Of a DNA stretch of 22,076 bases, positions 807 to 21,182 are shown in pieces. Each line of letters opens with the position of its first letter. Positions within the stretch are counted from its first letter, which is position 1. The notes under the pieces are model-generated. The model was not told where the DNA came from and made no database searches. It saw only the letters and a list, made by a program, of their open reading frames with translations. The stretch comes from a virus, in IMG/VR virus record IMGVR_UViG_3300037069_003700, positions 1 to 22,076 of that record; one strand, 5' to 3'. The translations under genes and the position numbers were made by a program.

Positions 807-819
807 GGTGGTACCCCTT

Positions 820-2295: not shown

Positions 2296-2314
2296 CGGTC
2301 CTTACCTCGCGCCC

Positions 2315-4147: not shown

Positions 4148-4165
4148 GGCGGCCCTCTGCGACGG

Positions 4166-5158: not shown

Positions 5159-5160
5159 GA

Positions 5161-5661
5161 CTATGGGCTCCCAGCTGATTCGTTAGAACCGAGCTTGATC
5201 GCGTAGATGCCCGGCGCGTCGGTTCGCGTCGAGTCCGTGTAGATGTGCACGCCTGCGACGGGGAGCGCCGCACTGTCGCTCGTGGCTGCGACCGTCTGCT
5301 CGTCGTAGAGGTAGACCGTCTTGCCCAGCGTCGTGACACCGAGCGCATCGGCTCCGGTCGACGAGGCGAGGAAGAACGTCCCCGTTCGGACCTCGACGGT
5401 GACCTGTCCGTCGACGGTGCCGCCGGTGATGCCGGGGCCCGTGTCGGCGGTGCCTGGACCCGCGTGCTCGTAGAGGCCCCACACGACGTCGGTCGAGAGG
5501 ATGGCCGAGTGCTGCGCCGGGACTGCGACGCCGCTTCGGGTGATCGCGACCGACCCGCGATAGACGGTCGTCGTCGCTTTCAGGTTGAGATTGACGGGCT
5601 GATTGGCGTTCCCGAGATCGCCCAGCCCGACGATCGGGATATCTGCCGTGAGATTCGCCAT
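5161..5661 (-). CDS. Capsid decoration protein (DUF2190-like)
   Basis: This 166-residue protein starts at ATG 5661, whose A is shared with the TGA of the protease gene (TGATG). It is beta-rich throughout: MANLTADIPIVGLGDLG at the N-terminus, a YRGSVAITRSGVAVP strand pair and a GQVTVEVRTGTFFLASS segment. Proteins of this size, placed between protease and major capsid genes with a YRGS-type strand early in the chain, are often capsid cement or decoration proteins of the DUF2190 kind. The residues are compatible with a small beta-barrel that binds the capsid surface. The family assignment is likely but not certain from reading alone. Confidence 0.65.
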   Translation of the reverse strand: MANLTADIPIVGLGDLGNANQPVNLNLKATTTVYRGSVAITRSGVAVPAQHSAILSTDVVWGLYEHAGPGTADTGPGITGGTVDGQVTVEVRTGTFFLASSTGADALGVTTLGKTVYLYDEQTVAATSDSAALPVAGVHIYTDSTRTDAPGIYAIKLGSNESAGSP

Positions 5662-7505: not shown

Positions 7506-7717
7506 GCGGCGAATCCCCAAAACGAGGTGAAGTAGGCGCGTAGCGCCGTGATTTCTGGCGCCGTCGCTGCGCGGTTGATTTTGATAAACTCGCCGAGATC
7601 CATGTCGACCCACTGGGTTGCCCCGACGAGTGATGCCCCAAAGATCGACAGCGGCGTGACAGGCGGTCCGCTGGCCCCGCCCGCGAAGCAATCGATCCCG
7701 ATCGCGATACAACTCAC
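7502..7717 (-). CDS. Small hypothetical protein between portal and protease
   Basis: This 71-residue protein is placed at GTG 7717 (MSCIAIGIDCFAGG), with GAGG seven bases upstream. A longer frame to 7855 would overlap the portal gene and is less likely. The N-terminus is small and hydrophobic, and the C-terminal half (MDLGEFIKINRAATAPEITA) is amphipathic. I do not recognise it. In Mu-type heads this position often holds small head proteins, and the MuF minor head protein usually also lies near here, but this product is far too short to be MuF. It ends in an ATGA overlap with the protease start, so both are probably translated together. Confidence 0.6.
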   Translation of the reverse strand: MSCIAIGIDCFAGGASGPPVTPLSIFGASLVGATQWVDMDLGEFIKINRAATAPEITALRAYFTSFWGFAA

Positions 7718-7727
7718 GGCGTGGCCC

Positions 7728-9179: not shown

Positions 9180-9183
9180 ACGC

Positions 9184-9223
9184 TGAGTCTACGCTGACCC
9201 TGTGGATGAGTCTACGTTGACCC
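9184..9223. repeat. Tandem imperfect 17-bp direct repeat in the portal leader
   Basis: Two copies of TGAGTCTACGYTGACCC lie at 9184-9200 and 9207-9223. They differ at one base and start 23 bp apart. They occupy almost the whole gap of about 45 bp between the stop of the upstream gene (9225) and the portal start (9179). No gene reads through this gap. They may be protein-binding sites or part of an RNA leader for the portal. Confidence 0.7.
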
Positions 9224-9224
9224 G

Positions 9225-9794
9225 TCAGACGGCTGCGGCAGCGACGCGCGGCCGGACGTGCGTCGGGAGCGGCTTGCCCACAAATCGGCGGTTGTCGGCC
9301 TTGGCAAACGTCTCGTACTTCCACTGCCGAAACGCGTCCGTCTCTTGCGTCCCGGTCGGCCCGAGCTCGTGCATCGTCATTCCGTCCGGAACGACGCCGC
9401 CCTCGGCCACGTGCTTGTCAATCCCGGCCGGCCACGCGTAGTTTCGCATGACCTTGACGACGCCCTTGTTTTCGAGCTTGCCGACGATCTTGCCCATGTG
9501 CTTGACGACGGGGTACTGAACCTCCGCGTCGAACGTCGCGCCGCTGATGTCCGATGTGCAGCCCTCGACGATCTCGACGAGCCCGAGCGCGTCGAGACCC
9601 TCTTGCTGACCGCGAAGGGCGGCCATGAGCTTCGCCATCGTCTCGTCGGCGGTGAGTGGCGGTTCGTTGTTCGCCGGAGCGCCGGACGAGCGCGCCTCGA
9701 GACGTTCGAGCCGATCGAGCAGCGGCGTGAGGACGCGGTTGAGGACGGTGCCGATGGCTTCGGCGATGTCGGTGCCCTTGTCGTCTTTGCTCAT
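9225..9794 (-). CDS. Conserved-looking hypothetical protein, terminase-portal interval
   Basis: This 189-residue protein is assigned to ATG 9794 because GAGGAG lies eight bases upstream. An in-frame GTG at 9803 would overlap the previous stop as GTGA but has no proper Shine-Dalgarno. Residues 10-35 form a heptad-like helix (VLNRVLTPLLDRLERLEARS) that may oligomerise. The rest is mixed, with LGLVEIVEGCTSDISGATFD and QYPVVKHMGKIVGKLENKG. I do not recognise a family. Lying between terminase and portal, it could be a packaging or head-assembly accessory, but nothing in the chain proves that. Confidence 0.7.
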   Translation of the reverse strand: MSKDDKGTDIAEAIGTVLNRVLTPLLDRLERLEARSSGAPANNEPPLTADETMAKLMAALRGQQEGLDALGLVEIVEGCTSDISGATFDAEVQYPVVKHMGKIVGKLENKGVVKVMRNYAWPAGIDKHVAEGGVVPDGMTMHELGPTGTQETDAFRQWKYETFAKADNRRFVGKPLPTHVRPRVAAAAV

Positions 9795-9799
9795 CGGAA

Positions 9800-9997
9800 T
9801 CACTCCTCACCACTGGAAATCAGGTTGTCCGGCACGGCATCCGGGCGGTTGTTCGATCCGCCGGGAAGACGGCTCGTTGCATCACGGAGACGCTCTTCGC
9901 TTGCGCGCCGCATTCGCTTGGACTCTTCGACGCTCACGCGCTCGCCCTGTTTCCGCGTCTCTCGCACGAGGTCGTCTTCTCGGTTGCTCATGGTCAT
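9800..9997 (-). CDS. Small charged hypothetical protein
   Basis: This 65-residue protein starts at ATG 9997, overlapping the terminase stop as ATGA. A second ATG two codons later is an alternative start. It is rich in Arg, Glu, Ser and Asp (residues 5-40 are a highly charged amphipathic helix) and ends in a disordered Pro/Asn/Gly tail. No domain is recognised. Its place just after the terminase suggests a packaging or head accessory, but that is positional only. Confidence 0.6.
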   Translation of the reverse strand: MTMSNREDDLVRETRKQGERVSVEESKRMRRASEERLRDATSRLPGGSNNRPDAVPDNLISSGEE

Positions 9998-11388
9998 ATC
10001 CTAGGCTTTCCGAAGGTCTTTGCAATGAATCCACCCGAGAATAGCGCCCCATCGCAGCCCGATACAAGCGCGTCGATCTCGTCGTCGTCGCCCGCCTTCG
10101 GGTTCCCAGTGAAGAGGCGACATCGCGACACGAACGCATTGACCCACGGCGCCTGCTCCGGGAGCATAATGCGTCCGGCGTTCCATGCATCGATCGTCTT
10201 GCGTGCGCGCGTCCCTTTGTCGTACCGGGCCGGCATCGCCTCGACGTTGACGCCGCGATCAATGAGGTACTGAATCGCGCCCTTCTCGGGCCCCGAGATG
10301 TACGAGAAGATCGCGGCTCCCGGATACTGGCGGAGCGCGAACAGGAGCCGCTGCGCCGCCATGTCGAGATCGCGTCGCTCGCGGTGCGCCTCGACGACGT
10401 ACGCGCGACCTTCCCAGATCTTCATCACGACGAGCGCAAAGAAGTCGCTCGAGGCCTCCACCGAGTAGGCGAGGTCGATCCCGAAGGCCCATCGGCCGAA
10501 GCTGGGGACGATGGCGTATCGGCTCGGATTGCCGAACAGGCCGAGCACGTCCGGCTGAGGGTTGTTCTGGAACTGCGCTTGCCAGAGTCGCTCGCCTTCG
10601 CCTAGCTCACGGAGCTCCGCGCGCCGCCTCTTGAGATCCTCGAGCGTCATGACGTTGGGAGCAAACGCGCGCTCGTCCGGGCCGTCCTCGTCGACTATCG
10701 CCGGGTGACGGATCTCCTCCCACACGCTCGCCTCGCGCAACAGCCGCCGGCCCGCCGGATCGTCCGGGTGCCATCGCGACATGATGCCGAGCACGGAGCC
10801 TGGACGACCAGGCCGCCCCGCGCGCGCGGTGTAGTGCGCGATCGCCGTATCGACCTCGGTGCGCACCCTGAGATCGAATGCGCCGTGCTCGTTGACGGGG
10901 TCGTCGAAAAACAGGATGTCGCAATCCTGCCCTAGCTTCGATTGCTTCGCGCTCATGACGGACACGCCGCCGCCTTGAGAGTTCTGCCAGATCGTCTGCT
11001 TGTTCCAATCGCGCTCCGGACCGATGCCGGCCGCTTCGCAAATCTGCCTCGTGCGCCGCCCGAGGTACTCCGCGCGCTCGTGGTCGTACGTGAAGAGAAC
11101 GATCTTCAACGTCGGATTGTGGACGAGCAGCCACGCGATGCCGTGAAGCGTCGTCTCCGTCTTGAAGTGTCGGATCGGAACACTGACGAGCGCGCGCACC
11201 GCTTCGGTGAGGCACCTTTCGATGATCGCGCACCAGTCGGCCAGATGGTACGGCGACGAGAACTCCGGCGAGATGCGCGGAATGAAGTCGAGAAGCGAGA
11301 GGCCGCGGAGTTGCTGTGCTAGCGGGATTTCTTCAACGGCCGGCGGCCCTGATATGCTCGGTCCCGGGTCGTCCTTCTTCCGCGCCAC
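9994..11388 (-). CDS. terL: Terminase large subunit
   Basis: This 464-residue protein starts with GTG at 11388 and overlaps the upstream glycosyltransferase gene by 56 bases. The N-terminal ATPase domain has a Walker-A-like motif at residues 70-80 (VPIRHFKTETT, with Lys/Thr in the P-loop position) and a Walker B at 158-163 (ILFFDD). The C-terminal RNase H-like nuclease has its first acidic motif at 303-308 (GIDLAY) and a late acidic cluster at 434-439 (DDDEID), as in large terminases with the ITP/SRWHPDD pattern at 204-210. It packages DNA into the prohead through the portal. It is encoded upstream of the portal and head genes, as in other Mu-like heads. I see no obvious small terminase next to it. 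Confidence 0.87.
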   Translation of the reverse strand: MARKKDDPGPSISGPPAVEEIPLAQQLRGLSLLDFIPRISPEFSSPYHLADWCAIIERCLTEAVRALVSVPIRHFKTETTLHGIAWLLVHNPTLKIVLFTYDHERAEYLGRRTRQICEAAGIGPERDWNKQTIWQNSQGGGVSVMSAKQSKLGQDCDILFFDDPVNEHGAFDLRVRTEVDTAIAHYTARAGRPGRPGSVLGIMSRWHPDDPAGRRLLREASVWEEIRHPAIVDEDGPDERAFAPNVMTLEDLKRRRAELRELGEGERLWQAQFQNNPQPDVLGLFGNPSRYAIVPSFGRWAFGIDLAYSVEASSDFFALVVMKIWEGRAYVVEAHRERRDLDMAAQRLLFALRQYPGAAIFSYISGPEKGAIQYLIDRGVNVEAMPARYDKGTRARKTIDAWNAGRIMLPEQAPWVNAFVSRCRLFTGNPKAGDDDEIDALVSGCDGALFSGGFIAKTFGKPRI

Positions 11389-12052
11389 TTGCAGAGCTTA
11401 CCACTTCGGGCTTCGTCGCCCGATAAACCTGAGCCCCAACATGATCCAGCGGCGATCCGGGGCCCGTGTAAAGGTGAATCTCCCCGCCGATCCGGAGCCA
11501 TCGCTCGCAGAACGAGAAGTCCTCACTGAGCAGCGCCCGGTGCGGCTGCGGATCCTGCACGTCGGAGAAGAGCAACTGAAAGAGCGCGACCGTCACGATT
11601 GGCTTGTCGTCGACGACGTCCGTGAAACGAAGCTCGTCGTAGTACGTGTCCCACATCTTCCGAAGGCACGCCTCTTTGATGAGCGTGAAGCCCATTGGAA
11701 CGAGCGGCTCGTGATGGGTCATGCGCCCGTGAACGCTCTTCTTCGGGTACGGGCACGCAATGACGTCGACGTCGCACCGGAGCATTTCACGGAGCGCGAG
11801 TCCGGCACCGGCGCCCCCGACGTCCGCGTCCCAAAACAAGAGATGCGTGTAGCACCCGTCGAGCGCCATTCTCGCGGCCCGCGATCGGGCGCGTACAAGA
11901 TCCATGTTCGTGAACGCGTTCCCGCTCGCGATCGTCGGGCTTGAGACGATCTGGATCGCTTTCAACATCGACAGCATGTAGTGGAGCGCGACGTCGCCGG
12001 AGAGGCCGCCCATGAGCGGGGTGGCGATGAGGAGACGGGTGGGCTCGATCAT
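11333..12052 (-). CDS. Glycosyltransferase, GT-A-like
   Basis: This 239-residue protein starts at ATG 12052 in an ATGA overlap with the upstream gene. It begins MIEPTRLLIATPLMGG, a Rossmann-like first strand and nucleotide-binding turn. A DXD-type motif, FWDADVGG, lies at residues 73-80, followed by the MLRCDVDVIACPYP strand. That is the layout of small phage-encoded GT-A glycosyltransferases, which use a metal ion and a nucleotide-sugar donor. It belongs to the sugar cassette upstream but lies closest to the terminase. Its 3' end overlaps the terminase start by 56 bases, so this end is constrained by two reading frames. The donor and acceptor are unknown. Confidence 0.7.
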   Translation of the reverse strand: MIEPTRLLIATPLMGGLSGDVALHYMLSMLKAIQIVSSPTIASGNAFTNMDLVRARSRAARMALDGCYTHLLFWDADVGGAGAGLALREMLRCDVDVIACPYPKKSVHGRMTHHEPLVPMGFTLIKEACLRKMWDTYYDELRFTDVVDDKPIVTVALFQLLFSDVQDPQPHRALLSEDFSFCERWLRIGGEIHLYTGPGSPLDHVGAQVYRATKPEVVSSASGAEEGRPGTEHIRAAGR

Positions 12053-12225
12053 TTTCGGGGCCCCGATTTTTTGCGGGCCGCTTTCTTTGCCAGCTCGAGT
12101 CTGTGCCGAAGATCGGAGATCTGTTCTCTCTGCCAACGCGTGGTCTCAAGAGCCGCGTGTAGGTAACTCTGAAGGTCAATCACGAGGGTCTGTAGCTGTT
12201 CGATTGTGAAAGTTGGGCCGCTCAT
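12049..12225 (-). CDS. Small coiled-coil protein
   Basis: This 58-residue protein starts at ATG 12225, overlapping the GroES-like stop as ATGA. Most of the chain (residues 8-52) is one predicted helix with regular hydrophobic spacing (IEQLQTLVIDLQSYLHAALE, then ISDLRHRLELAKKAARKK), so a coiled coil is likely. It has a basic Lys/Arg-rich tail. No family is recognised. It may be an adaptor or a small structural protein. Its place between the co-chaperonin and a glycosyltransferase gives no clear clue. Confidence 0.65.
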   Translation of the reverse strand: MSGPTFTIEQLQTLVIDLQSYLHAALETTRWQREQISDLRHRLELAKKAARKKSGPRK

Positions 12226-12560
12226 GTTCCTACCACCGCGATCACCTCTTCCTGAGTCACCCACACGCACGGCTCGCCATCGTCCCACACGCTCGCGCGC
12301 GTCTTCTCGATGCCGCCCGACGCGAACACGTAGACGACCTCATCACCGACCTCGAACCCGTGCGCGAGCTCGTGCCCGTACTGAAGCGCCGGGGCTCCTA
12401 TGCCGAGCACGCGACCGCGGTGCGACGAGCGCGCCTTGATGCCCTTGGACTTGTCCTCGTCCCGTTCGGTGTCGGGACGCTGGTCCGGGTGCCAGATGAG
12501 CCCGGTGCGCATCGGGATGATGGGACGGATCGCGATTCGGCCGCGCAAGGGTCTCAGCAC
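12222..12560 (-). CDS. GroES-like (Cpn10) co-chaperonin
   Basis: This protein of about 112 residues is placed at GTG 12560, overlapping the upstream stop by seven bases. The order of motifs matches GroES: an early RIAIRPI strand, then GLIWHP where GroES has the GIVL mobile-loop motif, then SHRGRVLGIG, the VGDEVVYV strand and a C-terminal WVTQEEVIAVV strand equal to the GroES 'SESDILAIVE' end. The stretch before the GLIW motif is short, and about 20 residues rich in Asp, Glu and Lys follow it, so the loop region differs from GroES. Phage T4 gp31 and similar phage proteins replace GroES when folding the capsid protein. The role here is inferred. Confidence 0.78.
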   Translation of the reverse strand: MLRPLRGRIAIRPIIPMRTGLIWHPDQRPDTERDEDKSKGIKARSSHRGRVLGIGAPALQYGHELAHGFEVGDEVVYVFASGGIEKTRASVWDDGEPCVWVTQEEVIAVVGT

Positions 12561-13336
12561 GCCAGCCACCTTTCCCAATCCGCATCCGTAGCGCCCTTTA
12601 CCCATCGCCTCGCCAATCGTGGCACCATGTCCCCGTAAAACCGGCTGAGCGGCACCGGCGGCACCCCGCGCCACCATTCCGCGTCGGTGCCCGGCAGACT
12701 GTCGCGCCAGGTCACCACAGGCCTACGATGTGAATGCGCGTCGTTGCCGTACGTGCTCGCGATGCTCGTGTCGTGGTCGATGATCGTCGGGACCGGATGC
12801 AGGATCGGATCGCCGCTCACGACCGCCCAGACGCAAAGGAGCGTGTCCTCGGTGATCGATTCGACGCCGCCTTTGCAGAGCGCGCGCGATCGCCAATCGA
12901 GGAACCGGCGCAGCGTCGGAACCGGCACGACGTAGCCGACGCCAACGAGACCGTCCGGCGTCTCGACCATTCGCGCGCCGCATTCGTGCGCCCGCTTCGC
13001 TTCGGGGTGCACCGTCTCGAGGCCGATGATTCGGTCCGGGTAAGCCTCGACCATCGCGGTCAGTTCGGCCCAGAAGTTCGGCGAGACGATGACGTCGTCT
13101 TGAAGGGTGAGGAAGTGCGGCGTCCCAGATTCGACGCCCCAATTCCACATCTTCTGGGACCAAACGTGATTGTGCTCGCGCTCGACAAAGAACCGTTTTG
13201 TCAGCATGCCGTCGTCGTACGTGCCGAGCGCCTTGCTCTCGCCGTCCTCGAGCGAGTTGTCGAGCAGCCGAAGACTTTGAACCCGCGCCGGCACCCAAGG
13301 CGTGTGCGGAATGCCGAGCGAAAACGTCACCGTCAC
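12554..13336 (-). CDS. Glycosyltransferase, paralogue of the 14753-15493 enzyme
   Basis: This 260-residue protein starts with GTG at 13336 in a GTGA overlap, giving MTVTFSLGIPHTPWVPARVQ. That N-terminus lines up with its paralogue at 14753-15493. A DXD-like LQDDVIVSPNFW is at residues 78-89, followed by RIIGLETVHPEA and a VGYVVPVPTLRRFLDW segment. It is a GT-A-type glycosyltransferase with a probable metal-bound nucleotide-sugar site. It lies directly after a methyltransferase and before the co-chaperonin. A longer start at 13348 exists but would use TTG and extend the gene over the neighbour. The acceptor is unknown. Confidence 0.7.
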   Translation of the reverse strand: MTVTFSLGIPHTPWVPARVQSLRLLDNSLEDGESKALGTYDDGMLTKRFFVEREHNHVWSQKMWNWGVESGTPHFLTLQDDVIVSPNFWAELTAMVEAYPDRIIGLETVHPEAKRAHECGARMVETPDGLVGVGYVVPVPTLRRFLDWRSRALCKGGVESITEDTLLCVWAVVSGDPILHPVPTIIDHDTSIASTYGNDAHSHRRPVVTWRDSLPGTDAEWWRGVPPVPLSRFYGDMVPRLARRWVKGATDADWERWLAC

Positions 13337-13893
13337 TTGACCCGCCAAACCGATCCGCTCGGTCGCAAGATGTTCTCTTTCCCGAATGCCTCATGAACCG
13401 CGCGATCGACGCCCGGGAATGACCCGTACGAGTCGCCCGAGTAGTCGTGCCCGCACATGATGCCGCTCGGCTTCAGCGAGCCGCGCCACGCCGCGATGTC
13501 GGCCTTGACCGATTCGTAGTTGTGGTCCGCGTCGATGAAGATGAGATCGAATACGCCCGGCAAAGCGACGCTCGACCGACCTCGGCTCGTGTTGATCATG
13601 CCCCAGGCCGGGGGAGCCGTCGTACGGATGTGGGACCGAAATATTTCCCACATATCCGGGCACCACGAAGCTTCCCACGCGTCGACGCCCCAGATTTCCG
13701 CCGTCTTCCCGTGCCGCGCGAACGCTTCGGCCAGGTAGATCAGCGACCGGCCCTTGTAGACGCCGACCTCGACGCATCGTGCGCCGTCGGGAAGTTCGGC
13801 GACGAGCGATTCGTAGAAGGGCAGGATATCGCTCGACCAGCCCTCGATTTCGGGCCGCCAGTTGTCCCAGGGATCGCCGCTCGGTTCGCTCAC
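13333..13893 (-). CDS. Class I SAM-dependent methyltransferase
   Basis: This 186-residue protein starts with GTG at 13893 in a GTGA overlap with the epimerase stop. Motif I, VEVGVYKGRS, is at residues 41-50, an acidic residue that would bind the ribose is at Asp71 (WGVDAWE), and FIDADHNYE is at 119-127. This is the Methyltransf_24 pattern seen in enzymes that methylate sugars or small molecules. A GHDYSGDSYGSFPGVDRAV segment lies in the C-terminal part. With sugar enzymes on both sides, the most likely substrate is a sugar hydroxyl on the glycan built by the cassette. That is inference, and a direct role in DNA modification is not excluded. Confidence 0.75.
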   Translation of the reverse strand: MSEPSGDPWDNWRPEIEGWSSDILPFYESLVAELPDGARCVEVGVYKGRSLIYLAEAFARHGKTAEIWGVDAWEASWCPDMWEIFRSHIRTTAPPAWGMINTSRGRSSVALPGVFDLIFIDADHNYESVKADIAAWRGSLKPSGIMCGHDYSGDSYGSFPGVDRAVHEAFGKENILRPSGSVWRVK

Positions 13894-14756
13894 GTTTTCT
13901 CTTCCTTTCCGTACCAGCCCAACGATCGCAACGCGTCGCGCACGCCGTCACCGATCGAAACCGGCGATGGCGGCACGAACTTTTGGAGCCTTCGCGGGTC
14001 GAGCCACGAGTGCGTGTCGCCGATCCAGCCCTCGGCTTTTTCCTCGCACGTTGTCTCAAAGGCGCGCACCGATTGCATCACGTCGGCAGTTTGCCGCCAT
14101 GACCACGTGTCGCCCGCGACGTTGTACGTGCCTTGCGGGACCGTTCCGCAGAGCGCCCCGATCACGGCCCGAACGACGTATTCGACGTGCACGAACGAGC
14201 GCGGGCGAGAGATGCTGCGCGCGTGAAACTTGCCCGTCTTGCGCACCTGCTCGACCATGTCCGCGATGTGGCCGTGGTGGTAGCTATGCCCGACCACGCT
14301 CGCGAGCCGATAGATGTGGGCCGATACGCCGCGCGCGTGGCAATAGGCCTGCACGAGCGCTTCGCCGGCGAGCTTCGACGCGGCGTAAGGGCTCGTCGCG
14401 AACGTGCCGCACGTCTCGTTGCAGATGTTCGCCTTCCGGTAAACCGCGCCCGTTGAGAGGAAGACGACAGGCACCGGACATGCCTCGAGAAGCGCAATCG
14501 TTGCTAGAATGTTGTTGCGATACAGGCTTTCGCGTTCGTCGTCGGATTCCCAATTGCTGGACACATCGGCGTGTGCGGCGCAGTGGACCACGGCGTCGCA
14601 CTTGGCTTCGGGATCGTTCGGGCTGAGAGATTCGAGATGCCGCGGCCCGAGATTGCAGCGCTTGTCGAGGATCGTGTAGTCGATTCCTTCGCGATCGAGG
14701 CCGATGCAGATGTTTCGGCCGATGAAGCCCGAGCCGCCAGTGACCAAGACCCTCAT
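13890..14756 (-). CDS. NAD-dependent epimerase/dehydratase (nucleotide-sugar, extended SDR)
   Basis: This 288-residue protein starts at ATG 14756 in an ATGA overlap. The Rossmann motif TGGSGFIG is at residues 6-13, the VVHCAAHADV strand at 56-65, a catalytic Ser/Thr at 101-102 in STGAVY, and the YxxxK pair is Tyr124/Lys128 (YAASK). These are the extended short-chain dehydrogenase/reductase features of GalE/RmlB-like nucleotide-sugar enzymes. The length is normal for a compact member (about 290-330). It should make a dTDP-, UDP- or GDP-sugar that the adjacent glycosyltransferases use. The substrate cannot be read from the sequence. Confidence 0.8.
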   Translation of the reverse strand: MRVLVTGGSGFIGRNICIGLDREGIDYTILDKRCNLGPRHLESLSPNDPEAKCDAVVHCAAHADVSSNWESDDERESLYRNNILATIALLEACPVPVVFLSTGAVYRKANICNETCGTFATSPYAASKLAGEALVQAYCHARGVSAHIYRLASVVGHSYHHGHIADMVEQVRKTGKFHARSISRPRSFVHVEYVVRAVIGALCGTVPQGTYNVAGDTWSWRQTADVMQSVRAFETTCEEKAEGWIGDTHSWLDPRRLQKFVPPSPVSIGDGVRDALRSLGWYGKEEKT

Positions 14757-15493
14757 CGCGGCAGCCCCAACATCGGAGCCGGCTTGTGCGCGAGCCAAAA
14801 CTGAGGATCGCGCATCGTGGGCCACTTTCCGATCACTTCGTTGTCGTCCCACTTCACCCGTTCATGGCTGTAGTTGTCGCCGTGCCCAGTGTGGCTCCAC
14901 GTCGACGGCCCGCGATGGTGCGAGATCGGTGTTGGGATCGGGTGCCAGGCCTCGCGCGGACCGTGGAACGTGATCCATTCGTTGAGCTCGGAATCGTCCG
15001 ACCAGCCTAACTTGTCGACACTGCCTGCTGGCGTTCGCGCTTCGGACCACGCCAGCAGCTTGACCATCATCGCGTGCGGAACGATGTATGCCGGTCCGAC
15101 GACCCACGAATTGGTGCGGTACCAGCGCACGCCTTCGGTTCGAAGTCTCGGCGCCTCGGGATGATTCGAGAGGAGCCCGATCACCGAGTTCGGTCGCGCC
15201 GTTACGATCGCTTCGATGACCGACCAAAAGCGCGGACACGTGTCGATGTCGTCGGTCATTAGGACGTGATGCGAGACGTCCTGGCGCGCGCACCATCGCC
15301 ACTGATTGAGCGTGAAGTCGACCGGATCGGATTTCGGCGTCGCCATTCCGAACCGATAGTCGATGTCGTGCACGTAGAACGGTAGCGATCCGTCGTCCGG
15401 ATCGGGGAGCAAACGTTGCTGCATCAGGCGTAGACGCGGCTTGCGCTCGGTCGACCACGGCGCGTGATTGATGAGGAGAGAGAAAGAGATCAC
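14753..15493 (-). CDS. Glycosyltransferase, GT-A-like
   Basis: This 246-residue protein starts with GTG at 15493 in a GTGA overlap with the previous gene (MISFSLLINHAPW). A DXD-type motif, MTDDIDTCPRFW, is at residues 79-90. It is followed by SVIGLLSNHPEA, VGPAYIVPHAMMVKLLAW and a WSHTGHGDNY segment. Side-by-side reading with the 12554-13336 protein shows the same N-terminal FSLxIxHxPW, the DD(I/V)..(C/S)P.FW metal site, an IGL...HPEA strand and a (V/G)xxYxVP segment, so the two are paralogues. It probably transfers a sugar made or altered by the adjacent epimerase and methyltransferase. Confidence 0.72.
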   Translation of the reverse strand: MISFSLLINHAPWSTERKPRLRLMQQRLLPDPDDGSLPFYVHDIDYRFGMATPKSDPVDFTLNQWRWCARQDVSHHVLMTDDIDTCPRFWSVIEAIVTARPNSVIGLLSNHPEAPRLRTEGVRWYRTNSWVVGPAYIVPHAMMVKLLAWSEARTPAGSVDKLGWSDDSELNEWITFHGPREAWHPIPTPISHHRGPSTWSHTGHGDNYSHERVKWDDNEVIGKWPTMRDPQFWLAHKPAPMLGLPR

Positions 15494-15684
15494 TTGCCCC
15501 TCTCGATCGTCTCTCCGCACCTGACGCACACGTCGCGCACGTAGGTCCGCTTTCGGAATGCGTCGATCACCTCGCTCAGCCTGGGCCCCTCGACCTTCGC
15601 GCCCGCGATCAGGTGCGACGGCTCTTGATCGTACCGGCCCTCGAACTTGTGGCCGAACGGGTGCATACAAAGGGCCGGCCTCAC
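15490..15684 (-). CDS. Small Cys/His-containing protein
   Basis: This 64-residue protein is placed at GTG 15684 (GTGA overlap). An in-frame ATG at 15666 is an alternative start. It has an early Cys, CMHPFGHKFEGRYD, and a late CVRCGETIERG. The GHKF...RYD start and the CVRC end resemble short proteins often seen in tailed phages. The Cys and His residues could bind zinc. I do not recognise a named family. It is translated in a chain with its neighbours and lies just upstream of the first glycosyltransferase. Confidence 0.6.
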   Translation of the reverse strand: MRPALCMHPFGHKFEGRYDQEPSHLIAGAKVEGPRLSEVIDAFRKRTYVRDVCVRCGETIERGK

Positions 15685-16109
15685 CTCTTCACCATCGGCG
15701 GCAACTTCGCCCCGGCCGGAGCCACCGTGATGCCGCTCTCTTGCGCGCGCATCGCCATGATCAGTTGTTCGCAAGAGTCGACGGACCGCGCAAGTTCCAC
15801 GCGTTCTTTTCGGGACAGCGTCTCGATAGGAATGACAATCGCGTCGAGAGGTACGTTGATCTCGCGGATCGACGGGAACGTGAGGAACGGCATCACTTGC
15901 CGCATCGTCATGAGCTGCGGCGCTTGGCGTGGATCCGGCTGGACCATCTGCATGACGCAGGTGAGGGCGAAGCCGGGATCGATACGGGCGATGGTGCGCT
16001 GGTTGATGTCGTAAAACGCGTGCTTCCCGATCAGTGTGTGCCCTTGAACGCATACGATCGACCAGCCGGCCAGCGGCCCGGTATCGGCGCCGTTTAGAAT
16101 GTCGGTCAT
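15681..16109 (-). CDS. Hypothetical protein
   Basis: This 142-residue protein starts at ATG 16109 in an ATGA overlap. It is strand-rich at the N-terminus (WSIVCVQGHTLIGKHAFYDI), has a Pro-containing middle with MQMVQPDPRQAPQLMTMRQV, and ends in helices (LSRKERVELARSVDSCEQLI). No signal peptide, membrane segment or known domain is evident. It is co-encoded with other small genes upstream of the sugar cassette. I cannot assign a function. Confidence 0.62.
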   Translation of the reverse strand: MTDILNGADTGPLAGWSIVCVQGHTLIGKHAFYDINQRTIARIDPGFALTCVMQMVQPDPRQAPQLMTMRQVMPFLTFPSIREINVPLDAIVIPIETLSRKERVELARSVDSCEQLIMAMRAQESGITVAPAGAKLPPMVKR

Positions 16110-16399
16110 CGGCCGATTCCTGTCGCGATCGCTTTTGCCCGACGACGCAAGCGGCTGTCCGGCTCTCGATACAGCTTCCCCGGGATTGGACGGACGGGAA
16201 GGCGCGCCGTTCCATATATCCAGGCGAGTGCGTCCAGTTGTTCGCCCGTAGACGCGCGGAATGGCGACCGTGCATCCCTGTTGGGCCGAAGGCGGCCTAT
16301 CGTGACCGCGGATCGTTTCGGCACCAGCATTTGGTACAAAGCCACGCGATCCGCGACGATCGCGTTGGCGGTCGCGAAAATCTGATCTAACGGGTTCAC
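16106..16399 (-). CDS. Small basic hypothetical protein
   Basis: This 97-residue protein starts with GTG at 16399, overlapping the preceding stop as GTGA. It has a helical N-terminus (MNPLDQIFATANAIVADRVA), a basic middle and a motif EQLDALAWIYGTARLPVRP followed by REPDSRLRRRAKA. A 'LDxLAxxYGxxR...E.D.xxRxR' pattern is common in phage baseplate and tail fibre proteins, but here it sits in a small, isolated protein far from the tail genes. I see the likeness and do not treat it as a family assignment. The function is unknown. Confidence 0.6.
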   Translation of the reverse strand: MNPLDQIFATANAIVADRVALYQMLVPKRSAVTIGRLRPNRDARSPFRASTGEQLDALAWIYGTARLPVRPIPGKLYREPDSRLRRRAKAIATGIGR

Positions 16400-16566
16400 G
16401 CCTTTTCCCGTCCCGCAGGCCCCGCGTAGAGCGAGCTCACCGCCGTCAAGACTCTGGTGCGCGCGTCCTCTTCGAGGTCGTTGAGGACGCGATCGATCCG
16501 GCGCATCGCGACCATCTCGGTCGAGGGCGGCTTCGGCTTCTTCTTGTTTCGTTCGGGGACGGTCAT
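16396..16566 (-). CDS. Small charged protein
   Basis: This 56-residue protein starts at ATG 16566 (ATGA overlap with the RHH gene), giving MTVPERNKKKPKPP, a basic Lys/Pro-rich N-terminus. It continues into one helix, AMRRIDRVLNDLEEDARTRV, and a short tail. Similar 50-60 residue proteins with a 'L..L.....R.RVL' helix are common in phage early regions, and their function is not known. Being second in an operon headed by an RHH regulator, it could be a regulatory partner. A longer start at 16656 is rejected because it runs over the RHH gene. Confidence 0.6.
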   Translation of the reverse strand: MTVPERNKKKPKPPSTEMVAMRRIDRVLNDLEEDARTRVLTAVSSLYAGPAGREKA

Positions 16567-16724
16567 TTGCGCTTCTCCAGTTCTGCGATCCCACACTCGA
16601 GGACGTACCGGACGACAGCCGCGACGGATGTCTTCGGTTGCTGCGCGTCCGCCCACCGCCTCACCCTCTCAAACACCCGACGAGGAATCCGAAGCGCGTA
16701 GACGATGTCCGGTTCGTCGCTCAC
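16563..16724 (-). CDS. Ribbon-helix-helix (Arc/MetJ-like) DNA-binding protein
   Basis: This 53-residue protein starts with GTG at 16724. The chain has the RHH layout: a short N-terminal strand with YALRIPRRVFERVRRWADAQ, then two helices around SVAAVVRYVLECGIAELE. The (L/V)RIP..(V/L)..R(V/I)R.WA.(A/S)Q.P start and the GI/GM-x-E(L/I)E(K/R)K ending repeat in a second RHH protein at 21179-21373, so the two are paralogues. These proteins bind DNA as dimers of dimers, and many repress their own promoters. A GTTGA-CGT-TCAAC palindrome directly upstream is a good operator candidate. It is the first gene of the operon that leads into the sugar and head genes. Confidence 0.72.
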   Translation of the reverse strand: MSDEPDIVYALRIPRRVFERVRRWADAQQPKTSVAAVVRYVLECGIAELEKRK

Positions 16725-16725
16725 T

Positions 16726-16738
16726 GTTGACGTTCAAC
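16726..16738. promoter_or_regulatory. Palindromic operator candidate at the RHH gene start
   Basis: The sequence GTTGAcgtTCAAC forms a perfect 5-bp inverted repeat around three bases, starting two bases upstream of the RHH GTG. Its place would overlap the -10 region and transcription start of the promoter suggested at 16735-16763. RHH proteins commonly bind such paired half-sites and autoregulate. Binding is inferred. Confidence 0.45.
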
Positions 16739-16763
16739 TACCCCCACCACCCTCCGTAGTCAA
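16735..16763 (-). promoter_or_regulatory. Putative promoter of the RHH / sugar / head operon
   Basis: A -35 box TTGACT (16758-16763) is followed at 17 bp by TAGTTG (16735-16740), a weak -10. The -35 lies in CTTGACTACGG, an 11-base string repeated exactly in the plus-strand promoter at 21863-21873. The GTG follows the -10 by ten bases, so the leader would be short or absent. The poor -10 suggests activator help or a non-standard sigma factor. Confidence 0.4.
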
Positions 16764-16800
16764 GCAACAACAACCCACAACGCCCAAGTAGCAACGGCGA

Positions 16801-16833
16801 AGCCGGAGCGCCCCAGTAGCCGGAGCGACCCAG
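16801..16833. repeat. Tandem 16-bp repeat
   Basis: AGCCGGAGCGCCCCAG (16801-16816) is followed one base later by AGCCGGAGCGACCCAG (16818-16833). The two copies differ at one position and have a period of 17. They lie in the non-coding stretch just before the two hairpins. Confidence 0.7.
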
Positions 16834-16840
16834 CCGCAGC

Positions 16841-16880
16841 GGGCCGGCATCTTCGGCCCAGCGCGAGCCCATCTTCGCGC
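16841..16880. other. Two adjacent hairpins with similar loops
   Basis: GGGCCG (16841-16846) pairs perfectly with CGGCCC (16854-16859) around a 7-base loop. One base later GCGCGA (16861-16866) pairs with TCGCGC (16875-16880) around 8 bases. Both contain CATCTTCG across the end of the loop and the returning stem. No U-run follows on either strand, so ordinary terminators are unlikely. They could act in replication or as a transcript structure. Confidence 0.6.
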
Positions 16881-17131
16881 CCTAGTCGACCCCAGACGCA
16901 AACGTTCGCCCTCACGACGTCGCAGCCAGCCCGCGCCCACAATGGGTACGCCAATGTAGGGCACCGTTCCCTTTAGAGCTCTCTCTCTGAGGTCGTCGAT
17001 CCCGTCGAGGGAACAATCGCCCGACGTTGCCCTGAGCCGGCCTAGTCGATCGCAGACGCCCCAGAGTGAGGCCGGTCAGTAGGTCGCGCGCCAGAGAGGC
17101 GATTGGGGCCGCGCTCGTCGAGCCCAGACGC
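16881..17131. repeat. Dispersed GTCGA-CAGACGC repeats
   Basis: A 19-base string is present at 16881-16899 (ending CCCCAGACGC) and again at 17041-17059 with two changes. A third, shorter copy, CGTCGAGCCCAGACGC, lies at 17116-17131. They are all on the same strand with uneven spacing (160 and about 73 bases), so they are not a CRISPR-type array. They could be binding sites in the origin region. Confidence 0.55.
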
Positions 17132-17340
17132 ATAGGCGCTCGACTGTCGGGCCGTTGTGGGGCGAGCAGAGGCCAGACGTGTGCATCGACCCAATCCGTC
17201 GCCGCTCGAGAGGGGCGTTCGGGCGAGGGGACGCGTTCGTGTGAGCTCTCGGGTTCGGGGCGTTGACGGGCGCCTCGAGCGGGGTGGGGAGGTCGGTTTT
17301 GTGTGCGCGCTCTTCGACGGGGGAGGGATACCTCCGCGTT

Positions 17341-17504
17341 ATTTGCAAAAAATTCTCAATGATTTCGCGAAACGTCTGGTGACCGTGGTGACCGTGGTGG
17401 GGGTTCTTCCCCAGTAGCCTCGCGCGAGATCTAGTCACTGGAATTTTACAACATCCAGCCGGTGGAGCGACCCCGGGACCGTCACCACGGTCACCACGCC
17501 ACCC
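17341..17504. other. Candidate replication origin: iterons with AT-rich patches
   Basis: GGTGACCGT occurs twice in tandem at 17378-17395 and is followed by GGTGGGGGT. At 17478-17495 the complementary form appears twice (ACCGTCACC and ACGGTCACC, the first with one change). The arms share a perfect 16-bp inverted repeat around 88 bases. Between or beside them are an AT-rich patch at 17341-17360 (16 of 20 bases A or T in an otherwise GC-rich genome), the palindrome TTTCGCGAAA at 17363-17372, the palindrome CTCGCGCGAG at 17419-17428, and a second AT-rich patch at 17441-17455. Phage P4's helicase-primase binds iterons starting GGTGA, as I recall, and the helicase gene ends about 130 bases away. 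Function is inferred. Confidence 0.55.
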
Positions 17505-17520
17505 CTGGCGCATCGGCCAC

Positions 17521-17540
17521 ACGACCGCACACGACCGCAC
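17521..17540. repeat. Tandem 10-bp repeat
   Basis: ACGACCGCAC occurs twice in direct tandem at 17521-17530 and 17531-17540. It lies between the inverted iterons and the helicase stop and may be part of the same origin-like array. Confidence 0.65.
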
Positions 17541-17634
17541 ACTGCGGCCCCATCCGACGCCCTCACACGTCCGCCCATCGGCGCCCTCTTGAGCGCTCTC
17601 TGTCCCCCCAAAAGGTCTGGACGCCGTCGACGCC

Positions 17635-19332
17635 CTATCTGGTCATCACGTGCCACAGCTGGACGCCGCCGTGCCCGGTCGACCGCTGTAGCGACCGATC
17701 CCCGAACCAGCGGCCGACGCAGCTTCCGAGCTTCTTCGAAATCGAGTTCGCGACCGGCCCAAGAGAGCCGCGGGCCGGCGACAGCGCTTCGAACGCTTCG
17801 CGCATCAGATTGTGATTGTCGGGCGGATCATTTTTCCCGGGCGCGGGATAGATCGAATCGAGCACGAACTTGAGCGACACGGGACCGCCCATCGCCGGGG
17901 CGACGGTGTCCCACCGATCCACGATGACGCGCACCGCGGCCGACGCGTCGAGCCCGGCACGCTCGGGGGGGGCGATCGCAAGCGAGACGTCCTCCCCGCC
18001 GGCGAACCGGATTGCGCCGCCGACGACATGGGCGAACGGTCCGTACGGATGGCCCATGCGTACGCCGGTGTCCGGGAACCCGTGGCAAGCGAACGCGCGC
18101 AGGACCGTGAGAGCGAGCGTGGCCAGGCGCGGCCGGTTTTCGATCGCGTACGTCGGGAGCGCGTACTTGAATTGCGTTCGGTTCGCCGGGTTCTCTAGCG
18201 GCGATTCCAGCCGGCTAAGAAGCGTCCGCCGCAGCATATCCTCGCTCAGATCCACGTTATTTCCGGACACCATGATGACGGAATACCAAGGCAGGGTGCG
18301 CAGCTGCAGGGCGCCCAGCATCCGGAACTCGACGCTCGTGCTCGTGAGCGTCTGCTCGATCGCGGATCCGCCGAGCGTGCCCTTGACGTTGTCGAGCAGA
18401 AGCGCTTGCGGCGCTCCGATCGCGTACGTGCTGAGCAGCTTCTCCTGCTCTTCCGGGTTGTTCGGCCAGTTCGCATGGGCCGGGACACGACCGACGGCGA
18501 TCACGTGCGCGAGATCGCACTGAAGCGTCTTGCCTGACCCCATCACGGACGCATCGAACAGGAACGCCGGAACCGGGCCGTCGATCGCCGCTCGCGCGAG
18601 GATCGCGAGGATCGACGCGATCGGCACGTACCGGCTCGGCTCGTTCGCGTAAGGGAAGTCGCAAAAGAGGTCGACGAGCTCAGCAAGCGCCGCCGCGGCT
18701 TCGCTCTGCGTCGGTTGGTCAGGGACGGGCGGGTACTCGGTCGACGGCCGATAGAGGTACCCGGTCGCCTCGTCGTAGCCGGCGTGCTGGCGCACGGTGC
18801 CGTCGGGCCGGAAGAGCGGGGATTCGGTCACGCCGCGGAGATCGCGCACGTGGCGCCAGTCGGGGAGCGAAAGGAACGCGCTGAGAAGGGCCGGCGGCGG
18901 TTGCACCGTGCGGCACTCGGCTTCGGCCTTCTCGCCGGTTTCCTCCGCCTTGGCGATCGCGCGCTTCGATGGGGGCTTGAGCGAGAGGCACTTGACATGG
19001 CGCGTGACGCGGGTGAGGAGCGACGAGACGGTGAGGGGCCGGACGATAGGCGTCCCGGTCGCCAGTTTCGCCGCGTCGCCTTTCGGGGGGAGCGTCCCGG
19101 CGACGGTGACGAGCTCGTGCGCGCGCTGGTAGACGAGCGGGTCGGCGGGGCCAAGGATCGCGTCGAGCTCGTCGCAGACGCGGTGCACGTCGGCGCCCAG
19201 GCGGAGCTCCGGACGCTCGTCAGTGCCAGGCGGCGGTCCCTCGTCGTCCCCCCAGGCTGGCCCCTCGCCTGGCGGGTCAACGATCCGCAGCTTCGGCGCC
19301 GGTGAGGCGAAGTCGATCGGGGCTGTGCTCAC
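17635..19332 (-). CDS. AAA+/SF3-like replication helicase, phage D5/P4-type
   Basis: This 565-residue protein starts with GTG at 19332 in a GTGA overlap. The C-terminal half is an AAA+ domain: Walker A MGSGKT at residues 264-269, Walker B-like LLLDN at 310-314, a sensor-like SGNN at 356-359 (after VIMV), and a RR pair at 368-369 that could act as an Arg finger. A segment with LPDW..VRDLRGVTESPLFRPDGTV before the ATPase is common in phage and integrative-element replication ATPases of the D5/P4 type. I see no primase motifs in the first 150 residues, which look disordered and charged, so this may be helicase only. It ends next to the iteron-containing region, which makes a role in replication initiation plausible. 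Confidence 0.75.
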   Translation of the reverse strand: MSTAPIDFASPAPKLRIVDPPGEGPAWGDDEGPPPGTDERPELRLGADVHRVCDELDAILGPADPLVYQRAHELVTVAGTLPPKGDAAKLATGTPIVRPLTVSSLLTRVTRHVKCLSLKPPSKRAIAKAEETGEKAEAECRTVQPPPALLSAFLSLPDWRHVRDLRGVTESPLFRPDGTVRQHAGYDEATGYLYRPSTEYPPVPDQPTQSEAAAALAELVDLFCDFPYANEPSRYVPIASILAILARAAIDGPVPAFLFDASVMGSGKTLQCDLAHVIAVGRVPAHANWPNNPEEQEKLLSTYAIGAPQALLLDNVKGTLGGSAIEQTLTSTSVEFRMLGALQLRTLPWYSVIMVSGNNVDLSEDMLRRTLLSRLESPLENPANRTQFKYALPTYAIENRPRLATLALTVLRAFACHGFPDTGVRMGHPYGPFAHVVGGAIRFAGGEDVSLAIAPPERAGLDASAAVRVIVDRWDTVAPAMGGPVSLKFVLDSIYPAPGKNDPPDNHNLMREAFEALSPARGSLGPVANSISKKLGSCVGRWFGDRSLQRSTGHGGVQLWHVMTR

Positions 19333-19739
19333 GAGTCAAGCCGCTCAGGCCGCCCGTCGTGCACAAGCTCCGGATCCTCAACGTACGGCGCGCGCCGGGA
19401 TTCGAGCTCCGCCTCGATCGCCCGTTCGAACGCCCCTTCGCTCCCGGTCAGTCGGTCGAGCAGCGGGCCGATTCGTTTCGAGGCCTCGACCGCGACGCGC
19501 AATGCCTGGTCTGCCTCTTCGTACCGGCAGAGCGCGGCCATCATCGTGCGGACGCGCATCCGGCTCCCTGGGGCCATTCCTGAAGCGGCCTTGCGTAGCC
19601 GGCGACAGTCACCGAGGGCCCAGTCGGCGACGACCTTGGCGTCGTAGAGGAGCTCGACGGCGGCCTTGTATTCGACGAGAAGGGCGGCGTGGGCGTCGAG
19701 AGCCTGGGCGGGCTTGGTCCCGTTCTTCGCGTGGGTCAC
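19329..19739 (-). CDS. Helical hypothetical protein
   Basis: This 136-residue protein starts with GTG at 19739, in a GTGA overlap. It is almost entirely helical with Ala, Leu, Arg and Glu in heptad-like spacing (LLVEYKAAVELLYDAKVVAD and later YEEADQALRVAVEASKR), suggesting a helical bundle or coiled coil. No family is recognised. Encoded directly upstream of the helicase, it could be a helicase loader or accessory. That is positional inference. The translation is coupled to the helicase through a four-base overlap. Confidence 0.65.
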   Translation of the reverse strand: MTHAKNGTKPAQALDAHAALLVEYKAAVELLYDAKVVADWALGDCRRLRKAASGMAPGSRMRVRTMMAALCRYEEADQALRVAVEASKRIGPLLDRLTGSEGAFERAIEAELESRRAPYVEDPELVHDGRPERLDS

Positions 19740-19972
19740 GATTGACCCGCCACGAAATCGGTAACCTCGTACCGGCCTCGATGCTTGAGGATTCGAAAGA
19801 GCGCGCGACCGAGAAGGCGACGCGTCTCGACGTCGTCACCGGCCGCGATCGCTTCGAAGCGGCGACGGCGGAGATAGGCCTCGTCGACGGCGCGGTGATC
19901 CGGGTCGTCGAGAATCGTCTGGGCTTCGACGCGGATCGCGAGAGAAGCCCGGTAGCATTCACGGCGGCTCAC
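19736..19972 (-). CDS. Small basic protein
   Basis: This 78-residue protein starts with GTG at 19972 in a GTGA overlap. It is basic and helical (ASLAIRVEAQTILDDPDHRA, then YLRRRRFEAIAAGDD) and ends in a short tail. I see no DNA-binding motif I can name. It is one of five consecutive GTG-started genes in this operon. Confidence 0.62.
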   Translation of the reverse strand: MSRRECYRASLAIRVEAQTILDDPDHRAVDEAYLRRRRFEAIAAGDDVETRRLLGRALFRILKHRGRYEVTDFVAGQS

Positions 19973-20265
19973 GACCGCGGCCCCGTCGGCTCGCGACGGC
20001 TATGGCCCGAGCGACACTCATTGCAATTGAGCCGCCCATCGAACCGGCTCGGGAACGCCTTGATCGCCCAGCACTGCGGGCAACGTTTGGTGCCGTCGAC
20101 CGGGACCCGCGTCCCGTAGTCGGACCGTTTCCGCCAGTGGACCGGAACACCGACTGGGTGCGGCGCGTCGGCTTTCGGCTGGTAGGGGCGCGGGGGCGTC
20201 GTCGCCGGCAGGTTCGGGAAGTGCCCGGCGACGGCGGAGACGGGGGGCCATTCGTGCGCGCTCAC
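19969..20265 (-). CDS. Small zinc-ribbon-like protein
   Basis: This 98-residue protein is placed at GTG 20265 in a GTGA overlap whose preceding 17 bases are identical to those before the GTG at 20495. The first half is Pro-rich and looks unstructured. Residues 60-90 hold CPQCWAIKAF...LNCNECRSGH, a pair of CxxC motifs 16 residues apart, enough for one zinc site. A longer frame from 20409 would overlap the upstream gene. Its role is unknown. Zinc-ribbon proteins in phage early regions often bind nucleic acid. Confidence 0.6.
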   Translation of the reverse strand: MSAHEWPPVSAVAGHFPNLPATTPPRPYQPKADAPHPVGVPVHWRKRSDYGTRVPVDGTKRCPQCWAIKAFPSRFDGRLNCNECRSGHSRREPTGPRS

Positions 20266-20495
20266 GTCGACCCCCCAAGGCGGGCAGCAACTTGGGCCGC
20301 GGTTCGTTTGGCCCAGTCCGCAGCGAGGAGCGCTGGGTAGATGATCGCCGCTATGGCCTTGACCAGCGGAAAGACCGTGCCCGCCATCTCGTGCGCGCAC
20401 CCATCGCAAAGGCCGTCGTCCCTATGTTCCTCGGTGAGATCTTTCGCGACGTGAGGAACGTACGTATGCCCGCACATTACGCAGAGGACGATCAC
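20262..20495 (-). CDS. Small protein with paired CxxC motifs
   Basis: This 77-residue protein starts with GTG at 20495 in a GTGA overlap. It reads MIVLCVMCGHTYVPHV and then DDGLCDGCAHE, so two CxxC motifs lie about 21 residues apart and could bind zinc. The C-terminal half is a helix rich in Ala, Ile and Leu (LVKAIAAIIYPALLAADWAK), which may pack against a partner or a membrane. No named family fits. The gene ends LGGST, and the same 17-base end with overlapping GTGA occurs at the next gene boundary upstream. Confidence 0.65.
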   Translation of the reverse strand: MIVLCVMCGHTYVPHVAKDLTEEHRDDGLCDGCAHEMAGTVFPLVKAIAAIIYPALLAADWAKRTAAQVAARLGGST

Positions 20496-20743
20496 GTCGA
20501 CCCCCCAACTTGCGCCGCCGCGATCTGTTTCTTGAGGCCAATGATGACGAGCGAAGCGGCGATAAGCTTTGCGTCCAGTTCGCCCGCGATCCGTTCGGCT
20601 TCGATCGCGCGCTTCTTGAAATGGTGCGCCTCGCGTCGCCAGTATTCCCGCCCGTCGTGCGCCGGTTGTGGAGCGCCCGATCCGGGCTCGGGCTGTTGTA
20701 ATTCCGGACCGTCAATCGTCGCCGCGCCGCCGTTCTTCGCCAT
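20492..20743 (-). CDS. Small helical hypothetical protein
   Basis: This 83-residue protein is placed at ATG 20743 (MAKNGGAATIDGPELQQPEP). The N-terminus is Pro/Gly-rich. From residue 34 on, a helix (REYWRREAHHFKKRAIEAER) runs into LDAKLIAASLVIIGLKKQIA, a coiled-coil-like pattern. No family is recognised. A longer frame to 20875 exists, but its first part is low-complexity Arg/Pro/Gly and overlaps the spacer hairpin. It is the first gene after a 163-base spacer that could hold an internal promoter. Confidence 0.58.
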   Translation of the reverse strand: MAKNGGAATIDGPELQQPEPGSGAPQPAHDGREYWRREAHHFKKRAIEAERIAGELDAKLIAASLVIIGLKKQIAAAQVGGST

Positions 20744-20906
20744 GATGCACGCTCCACATTCAGAACCGATGGGGCTGCCCCGAAGAGAACCGCGACCCGG
20801 TTGCGGTCGCCTTGGGGAAGGCCCTGATCGCGGGCCTCTGCGGAGCAGCGTGGTCGAGCCGCAACGCCCGAGCACGGTTCAATGATGAGCTTGGAAGGAA
20901 GCGAGG
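20744..20906. other. Spacer with a possible internal promoter and hairpin
   Basis: This 163-base gap interrupts an otherwise gapless operon. On the minus strand TTGACC (20905-20910) is followed at 17 bp by CATCAT (20882-20887), a 4/6 match to the -10. Downstream, CCCC and GGGG, with inner ACCGC/GCGGT-type pairing, form an imperfect hairpin near 20790-20830. No gene of good quality fits here. It may be an internal promoter with an attenuator-like stem. Confidence 0.4.
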
Positions 20907-21182
20907 TCAAGCTTTCATCGGGTCGTCAACGATCACGATGAACGACGGTTCGTCAGCGGGCGACCACGATCGGGCCGCTTGATGACATGCGAGCGCCAGC
21001 CGACCGAGCGGGGTGATGAGACAGTGGATCCAGTCCGGATCGTCGCACGAGCACCACTTCAGGAGACCTCGGGCCACAAGTCGATCCTGTAGCGCTACCT
21101 CGTCGTCGTCCGGCTCTTTACAGTCGCAACAGTGGGTGCAGGTTCGTAGGTACGCGCCTTCCTCGTCGGTCAGACCCTTCAC
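20907..21182 (-). CDS. Cys-rich hypothetical protein
   Basis: This 91-residue protein starts with GTG at 21182 in a GTGA overlap. It opens MKGLTDEEGAYLRTCTHCCDCKEPDDDEVA, with four cysteines in seven residues, then has CSCDDPDWIHCLITPLGRLA. The cysteines could hold a zinc ion or an iron-sulphur cluster. The DDxxHCLITPLGR segment resembles a winged-helix-like turn but I cannot call it. No family is recognised. It is placed between two regulatory-looking genes. Confidence 0.62.
   Translation of the reverse strand: MKGLTDEEGAYLRTCTHCCDCKEPDDDEVALQDRLVARGLLKWCSCDDPDWIHCLITPLGRLALACHQAARSWSPADEPSFIVIVDDPMKA

Follow-up and report, generated by a model that had tools for sequence, protein, structure and literature searches.

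Where does a phage begin to copy its genome, and can the place be recognized when only a piece of that genome is at hand? Phage origins are seldom found from sequence alone. The window that we analysed (the whole stretch of DNA, a linear viral contig of 22,076 bp whose genes read on the minus strand) offers an unusually compact version of the problem: an ATPase gene is followed by about 0.95 kb of noncoding DNA and then by late genes, among them a terminase, a Mu-type portal, an S49 protease and a tail sheath. In the noncoding region, which occupies 16700–17634 between the ATPase gene and the terminase and portal genes, iterons face their own mirror image 3' of the ATPase gene, 136 bp past its stop codon. 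What are they for? Many plasmids and phages show this layout in the same position next to a related helicase gene, and one of these loci is a proven origin; most probably, therefore, the phage begins its replication here, at an origin of the pWTY27 type where the adjacent RepA-like initiator helicase acts on two facing iteron arrays. The features on which the argument turns are these.

16700–17634, no strand assigned: noncoding region holding the element; a codon-usage scan gives no coding signal in any frame
17335–17372, no strand assigned: AT-rich patch lying beyond the second arm; possibly a DNA-unwinding element, possibly a late promoter
17376–17402, plus strand: first iteron array, CTGGTGACC GTGGTGACC GTGGTGGGG; three 9-bp copies, of which one is degenerate and the others good
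17377–17498, no strand assigned: whole mirrored-iteron element, where replication is presumed to start and the initiator to bind; the arms measure 16 bp in each of two registers and enclose a spacer of 83–88 bp
17403–17477, no strand assigned: spacer (loop), candidate unwinding site; its AT-rich stretch GGAATTTTACAACATCC is enclosed by the short inverted repeat CTGGA/TCCAG
17480–17498, minus strand: mirrored iteron array, GTGGTGACC and GTGGTGACG
17518–17545, minus strand: possible accessory iterons (weak); two exact 10-bp repeats (CACACGACCG on the plus strand) and a partial third
17635–19332, minus strand: ATPase gene, 565 aa, AAA+/SF3-like; homologue of pWTY27 RepA and putative initiator helicase

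Are the repeats more than chance? The motif GGTGACCGT occurs three times in the window (17378+, 17387+ and 17487−) against 0.31 expected, a count reached in 1 of 100 shuffles. In the best register the iteron unit is the 9-bp GTGGTGACC, which stands in tandem on the plus strand at 17376–17384 (one mismatch) and 17385–17393 (exact) and returns on the minus strand at 17489–17497 (exact) and 17480–17488 (one mismatch). Perfect 16-bp inverted repeats are found in two registers (17377–17392/17481–17496 and 17384–17399/17483–17498), and these are the longest inverted repeats of the window for loops of up to 150 bp, the next being 11 bp. Because 1 of 60 whole-window shuffles also reached 16 bp, the repeat by itself is good, not overwhelming, evidence; when the 400 bp past the ATPase gene were shuffled, none of 100 trials equalled the observed repeat. 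The tandem 9-bp iterons with complementary copies some 100 bp away, which a preliminary description of this DNA had noticed, are thus real by register, shuffle and inverted-repeat scans alike. The AT-rich patches and palindromes that it had listed beside them also exist, but they are less telling. The window holds 50 perfect 10-bp palindromes, so that TTTCGCGAAA (at 17363) and CTCGCGCGAG (at 17419) carry no weight, and the patch at 17335–17372, although among the lowest-GC 31-mers in the window (0.29), is equalled at about 748 and about 21821. The spacer has an AT content of 0.40 against 0.36 in the flank, and the 10-bp repeats of 17518–17545 occupy part of the interval from the nearer arm to the ATPase gene.

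The mirrored iteron pattern has no other exact match in IMG/VR; that is, no close relative carries the same iterons, which suggests that what is conserved is the architecture and not the sequence. A search with the iteron sequence GGTGACCGTGGTGACCGT did return 36 viral contigs, none of which encodes the window ATPase or has the long mirrored layout. Read in frame, this sequence gives a Val-Val-Thr repeat, so these matches are probably coding repeats for the most part.

What kind of protein lies next to the repeats? The window ATPase carries a Walker A motif (GSGKT), a Walker B motif (LLLDN) and a motif-C-like SGNN. It is matched by no Pfam model, those for D5 and P4 included, and PHROGs relates it to phage DNA polymerase/primase families. 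Both the window ATPase and pWTY27 RepA match phrog_29234, phrog_10537 and phrog_19930. Through phrog_19930, and through tblastn, in which it aligns with the ATPase part of large phage proteins, the window ATPase shows homology to the ATPase moiety of replication proteins that combine Prim-Pol and ATPase. BLASTP aligns it with pWTY27 RepA at 29% identity over 411 aa (E=1e-35). Its nearest full-length relative, encoded by contig L060 (33% over 554 aa), led on to homologues annotated as bifunctional primase/polymerase units, which are found on small plasmids (pWTY27, pMNOD06, pCM32 and others). On several small plasmids a Prim-Pol/ATPase unit is the sole evident replication gene, and in locus L058 a separate Prim-Pol ORF adjoins the homologous ATPase; Prim-Pol (PF09250) has no match in the incomplete 22-kb fragment or in the L060 fragment. 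A structure model built from four sequences is of low confidence (mean pLDDT 52), with no DNA-binding domain or winged helix assignable in it, and a Foldseek search of the PDB with this low-confidence model puts AsfvPrimPol and the D5/E5 helicases of poxviruses at the top (E ~1e-6, low TM-scores). Direct sequence searches of the PDB gave no useful match, genome scans of 84,980 species gave no relatives of the window ATPase or of the portal, and the deep profile search of viral contigs for the ATPase was limited by low conservation. Motifs, Foldseek matches and homology together lead us to read the protein as a replicative helicase without a primase domain, likely of the SF3/D5 fold.

Is it then a P4-like origin, as had been supposed? 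In the strict sense, with the ATPase an orthologue of P4 alpha and the repeats P4 type I iterons, this is highly improbable, and yet it is easy to see where the idea comes from. Phage P4 alpha is a helicase of the SF3/D5 fold. In the P4 record, crr follows the alpha gene immediately and contains type I repeats both in tandem (at 9-bp spacing) and in mirror image, so the layouts of P4 and the window match; GGTGA occurs in both iterons; and D5-type hexameric helicases come first in the structure search with the low-confidence model, which gives the earlier label "D5/P4-type ATPase" partial support. Against this, the Toprim, D5_N and Pox_D5 models match alpha and none matches the window protein, and alpha and the window ATPase share no significant protein similarity. 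The motif that had been named, iterons beginning GGTGA, is correct for P4 (GGTGAACAGT), but it misleads as a sign of descent: the P4 type I iteron agrees with that of the window at 6 positions, as compared with 10 for a Streptomyces RepA plasmid, and the window iteron is much closer to the GTGGTAACC/GTGGGAACC of such plasmids. In other words, "P4-like" is apt for the layout (the place of crr) and weakly for the fold, but not for the sequence family, whether judged by homology, domains or iteron. The element may well work like crr, but it is probably not an origin of the P4 family.

The relative that matters most is the Streptomyces plasmid pWTY27. Wang et al. (2012; PMC3583192) found three things indispensable for its replication in S. 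lividans: repA, repB and the 300-bp noncoding stretch 321–620. The minus-strand gene repA has its end at 621, so that this stretch is the DNA directly following its stop codon. RepA gave a specific gel shift (EMSA) and a footprint over a discontinuous inverted repeat of ~105 bp built of iterons, and the locus, once provided with telomeres, propagates as a linear molecule, from which the authors infer bidirectional replication (PMC3583192). By analogy with this homologue, we infer that the window ATPase would bind the iterons beside its own gene. The iteron itself gives mild support: CGTGGTGACCG of the window and CGTGGTAACCG of NBC_01139 are equal at 10 of 11 positions, a match found among many registers and relatives.

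One relative could be a coincidence; how general is the arrangement? We took 25 other loci, chosen by ATPase homology alone, which with the window make 26, and scored, over the 400 bp that follow each ATPase gene, the best mirrored arms with loops of 35–200 bp, using as controls dinucleotide shuffles, the upstream flank and every other 400-bp block of the same loci (540 blocks). The downstream mirrored repeat ranks first among the blocks of its locus in 17 of 26 cases, the window included, where the block past the ATPase gene is likewise on top. A score of at least 16 is found in 12 of 26 downstream flanks and in 0 of 540 control blocks (Fisher p ~5e-18), and one of at least 12 in 16 of 26 against 9 of 540 (p ~2e-18); when the window is left out, p is ~1e-16 to 3e-16. 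Upstream of the homologous genes a mirrored repeat is rare. Nor is this one origin counted repeatedly, because among the proteins compared only those of pWTY27 and NBC_01139 exceed 45% mutual identity. The nine loci without a first-ranking repeat include phages of ~130–215 kb and plasmids that possibly depend on other replicons, as well as Moulinsart, TPWB-08 and L076. (Counting 9-mer iterons at one mismatch proved too blunt for the window, and the mirrored-arm score is the useful measure. The polarity of a G-rich first arm was considered as a further conserved trait and rejected, as it holds in only about 10 of 17.)

The iterons themselves differ from locus to locus, whereas their place and symmetry are kept: AZO_p2 has three AGTGGGTTT iterons and an exact mirror (31 bp perfect), pA32H2 three mirrored copies of GGTAGGGATA, NBC_01792 three mirrored iteron copies and vir525 nine copies of ATACCCGCA. 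That iteron sequence changes so freely while position and two-fold symmetry persist may point to a paired, face-to-face loading of helicases as the common mechanism. The preliminary description had proposed an initiator-helicase acting at its own iterons, and had allowed that their absence beside homologous helicases would count against it. Mirrored iterons or long inverted repeats lie downstream of most homologous ATPase genes, and pWTY27 RepA binds just such an array, so that this proposal has gained rather than lost. Another of its suggestions, cumulative GC skew, with minima elsewhere counting against an origin here, gave a minimum at 17760. Because the 22-kb contig is incomplete, this is weak support; the range of the skew is marginal against block shuffles (p ~0.05), and a minimum equally close arises in ~2% of them.

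Could mirrored repeats in this position be doing something else entirely? They stand between an early ATPase gene and late genes, all on the minus strand, and the AT-rich patch at 17335–17372 could contain a promoter; one might therefore imagine an operator at which a transcription regulator, bound to the 9-bp repeats, switches the late operon just beyond. We consider this unlikely. A consensus scan of the region shows no sigma-70-like promoter, small plasmids that have no late genes show the same layout past the same gene, and the protein bound in pWTY27 is RepA itself (PMC3583192); the element may, of course, be an origin that also regulates transcription. As RNA, both strands fold better than shuffles (z ~−4.3 and −4.0), as a transcription terminator or a structured RNA 3' of the ATPase gene would, but any mirrored repeat would fold in this way, and the best fold merely mirrors the iteron arrangement. 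The loop of 83–88 nt, the lack of a U-tract directly past the stem and the lack of any Rfam family matching the stretch make a terminator or structured RNA very unlikely, the more so as in pWTY27 and pA32H2 the gene is followed first by a short hairpin that, with its T-run, resembles a terminator, and then by the mirrored array, so that there the two are separate features.

Iterons and inverted repeats are typical of centromeres too, and a plasmid-type partition site, its iterons bound by a ParB/ParR-like protein, might look much the same. To this we give hardly any credence: no ParA or ParB was identified among the scanned genes of the window, the element accompanies the replication ATPase gene in one unrelated replicon after another, and in pWTY27 it is RepA that binds and replication that depends on the site (PMC3583192).

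If the element is an origin, how might it work? The RepA-like ATPase would bind the 9-bp iterons on both arms, a step that others have demonstrated for the pWTY27 homologue. The mirrored arms would then set two groups of subunits face to face, or perhaps, in supercoiled DNA, pair up as a stem-loop; one or two hexameric helicases could then assemble and open the DNA, either in the AT-rich spacer or in the AT-rich patch alongside; and a primase (a Prim-Pol encoded beyond the end of the contig, or that of the host) would prime bidirectional synthesis.

The company that this origin keeps deserves a word. The main virion proteins encoded at 324–11388 are 41–61% identical to those at 8053–21020 of another IMG/VR contig, L038, with which the window has terminase, portal, protease, major capsid and sheath in common. 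The replication module of L038 is a different one, however (an AAA_25 helicase, an AAA_24 ATPase and a DEAD/DEAH helicase), which, with the virion modules so clearly related, suggests module exchange; none of the portal-based virion relatives that we examined has an ATPase of the window's type or iteron arrays. Here, then, a plasmid-type replication module accompanies a head and tail module of the Mu type, and the nearest virion relative has another replication module. Within the virion module, the S49 protease ORF (5661–7712) extends into a C-terminal part that is long, acidic and scaffold-like (EDDEEDEEDEDD...), and in this it resembles the protease/scaffold fusions of the Mu type. Between terminase and noncoding region, within 11333–15670, an SDR/epimerase-like gene (13890–14852) and neighbouring unassigned ORFs form an unusual late-region cargo.

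What is gained if all this is right? A site, a likely initiator and an experimentally studied relative together yield a simple rule for predicting origins in this ATPase family: seek mirrored iterons in the first few hundred bases past the stop codon. The rule held in 17 of 26 replicons, the exceptions including several large phages and multi-replicon plasmids. It predicts origins for two small Psychrobacter plasmids (L068 and L065) and for Methanothrix pGP6 (L072), also small, whose replication regions are unannotated. In the 750-kb conjugative Azospirillum plasmid AZO_p2 (L061), the mirrored AGTGGGTTT array at 4004–4185, past a RepA-like ATPase gene and upstream of a terminase gene, looks like the replicon of a prophage or phage-plasmid lodged inside a plasmid. 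The role of two-fold iteron symmetry in loading two helicases head to head also becomes testable.

How, finally, does the element compare with systems already known? It looks like a phage addition to the pWTY27-type class of origins, and the class itself looks wider than described; in the open-licence literature we found no description of mirrored iterons past the ATPase gene as a general feature of actinomycetotal, alpha-/gammaproteobacterial and archaeal plasmids and of several phages. Such a class would span plasmids of Actinomycetota, alpha- and gammaproteobacteria and methanogens as well as tailed phages with different virions. Whether mirrored iterons directly past an SF3-like ATPase gene make up one widespread class, with P4 crr and pRN1 as outlying members and paired face-to-face helicase loading common to all, is a proposal on which we are evenly divided. 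With pWTY27 the window shares a homologous RepA-type ATPase, a noncoding mirrored-iteron array directly 3' of its gene and G-rich iterons of 8 to 9 bp (GTGGGAAC there, GTGGTGACC here); pWTY27 differs in having 10 iteron copies, a longer inverted repeat (the ~105-bp footprint), a plasmid way of life and a separate Prim-Pol gene, repB, whereas the phage has fewer iteron copies and its 22-kb fragment contains no Prim-Pol. AZO_p2 and L060, compared at the level of annotation, repeat the order of ATPase gene (34% and 33% identical) and mirrored repeats, followed in AZO_p2 by terminase genes and in the viral contig L060 by what may be a small terminase gene and by a portal gene of the Mu type; their iteron sequences are unrelated to those of the window. 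Archaeal pRN1 needs for its replication a stem-loop of ~100 bp (21-nt stem, 58-nt loop) starting 54 bp downstream of its primase-helicase gene, and a similar one has been proposed for phage BIP-1 (PMC4234260). The window's stem-loop agrees in position with this long stem-loop 3' of a replication gene, as found in pRN1 and pRN2, but the pRN1 arms are not iteron arrays according to the authors, the protein has its own primase and winged helix, and its binding to the stem-loop site was not detected in vitro (PMC4234260). P4 crr, for its part, has tandem and mirrored iterons directly 3' of the initiator gene, as in the window, but it has an iteron of another sequence, and P4 has a second, distant site, ori1. 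The layout thus links a proven plasmid origin (pWTY27), the archaeal stem-loop of pRN1 and P4 crr.
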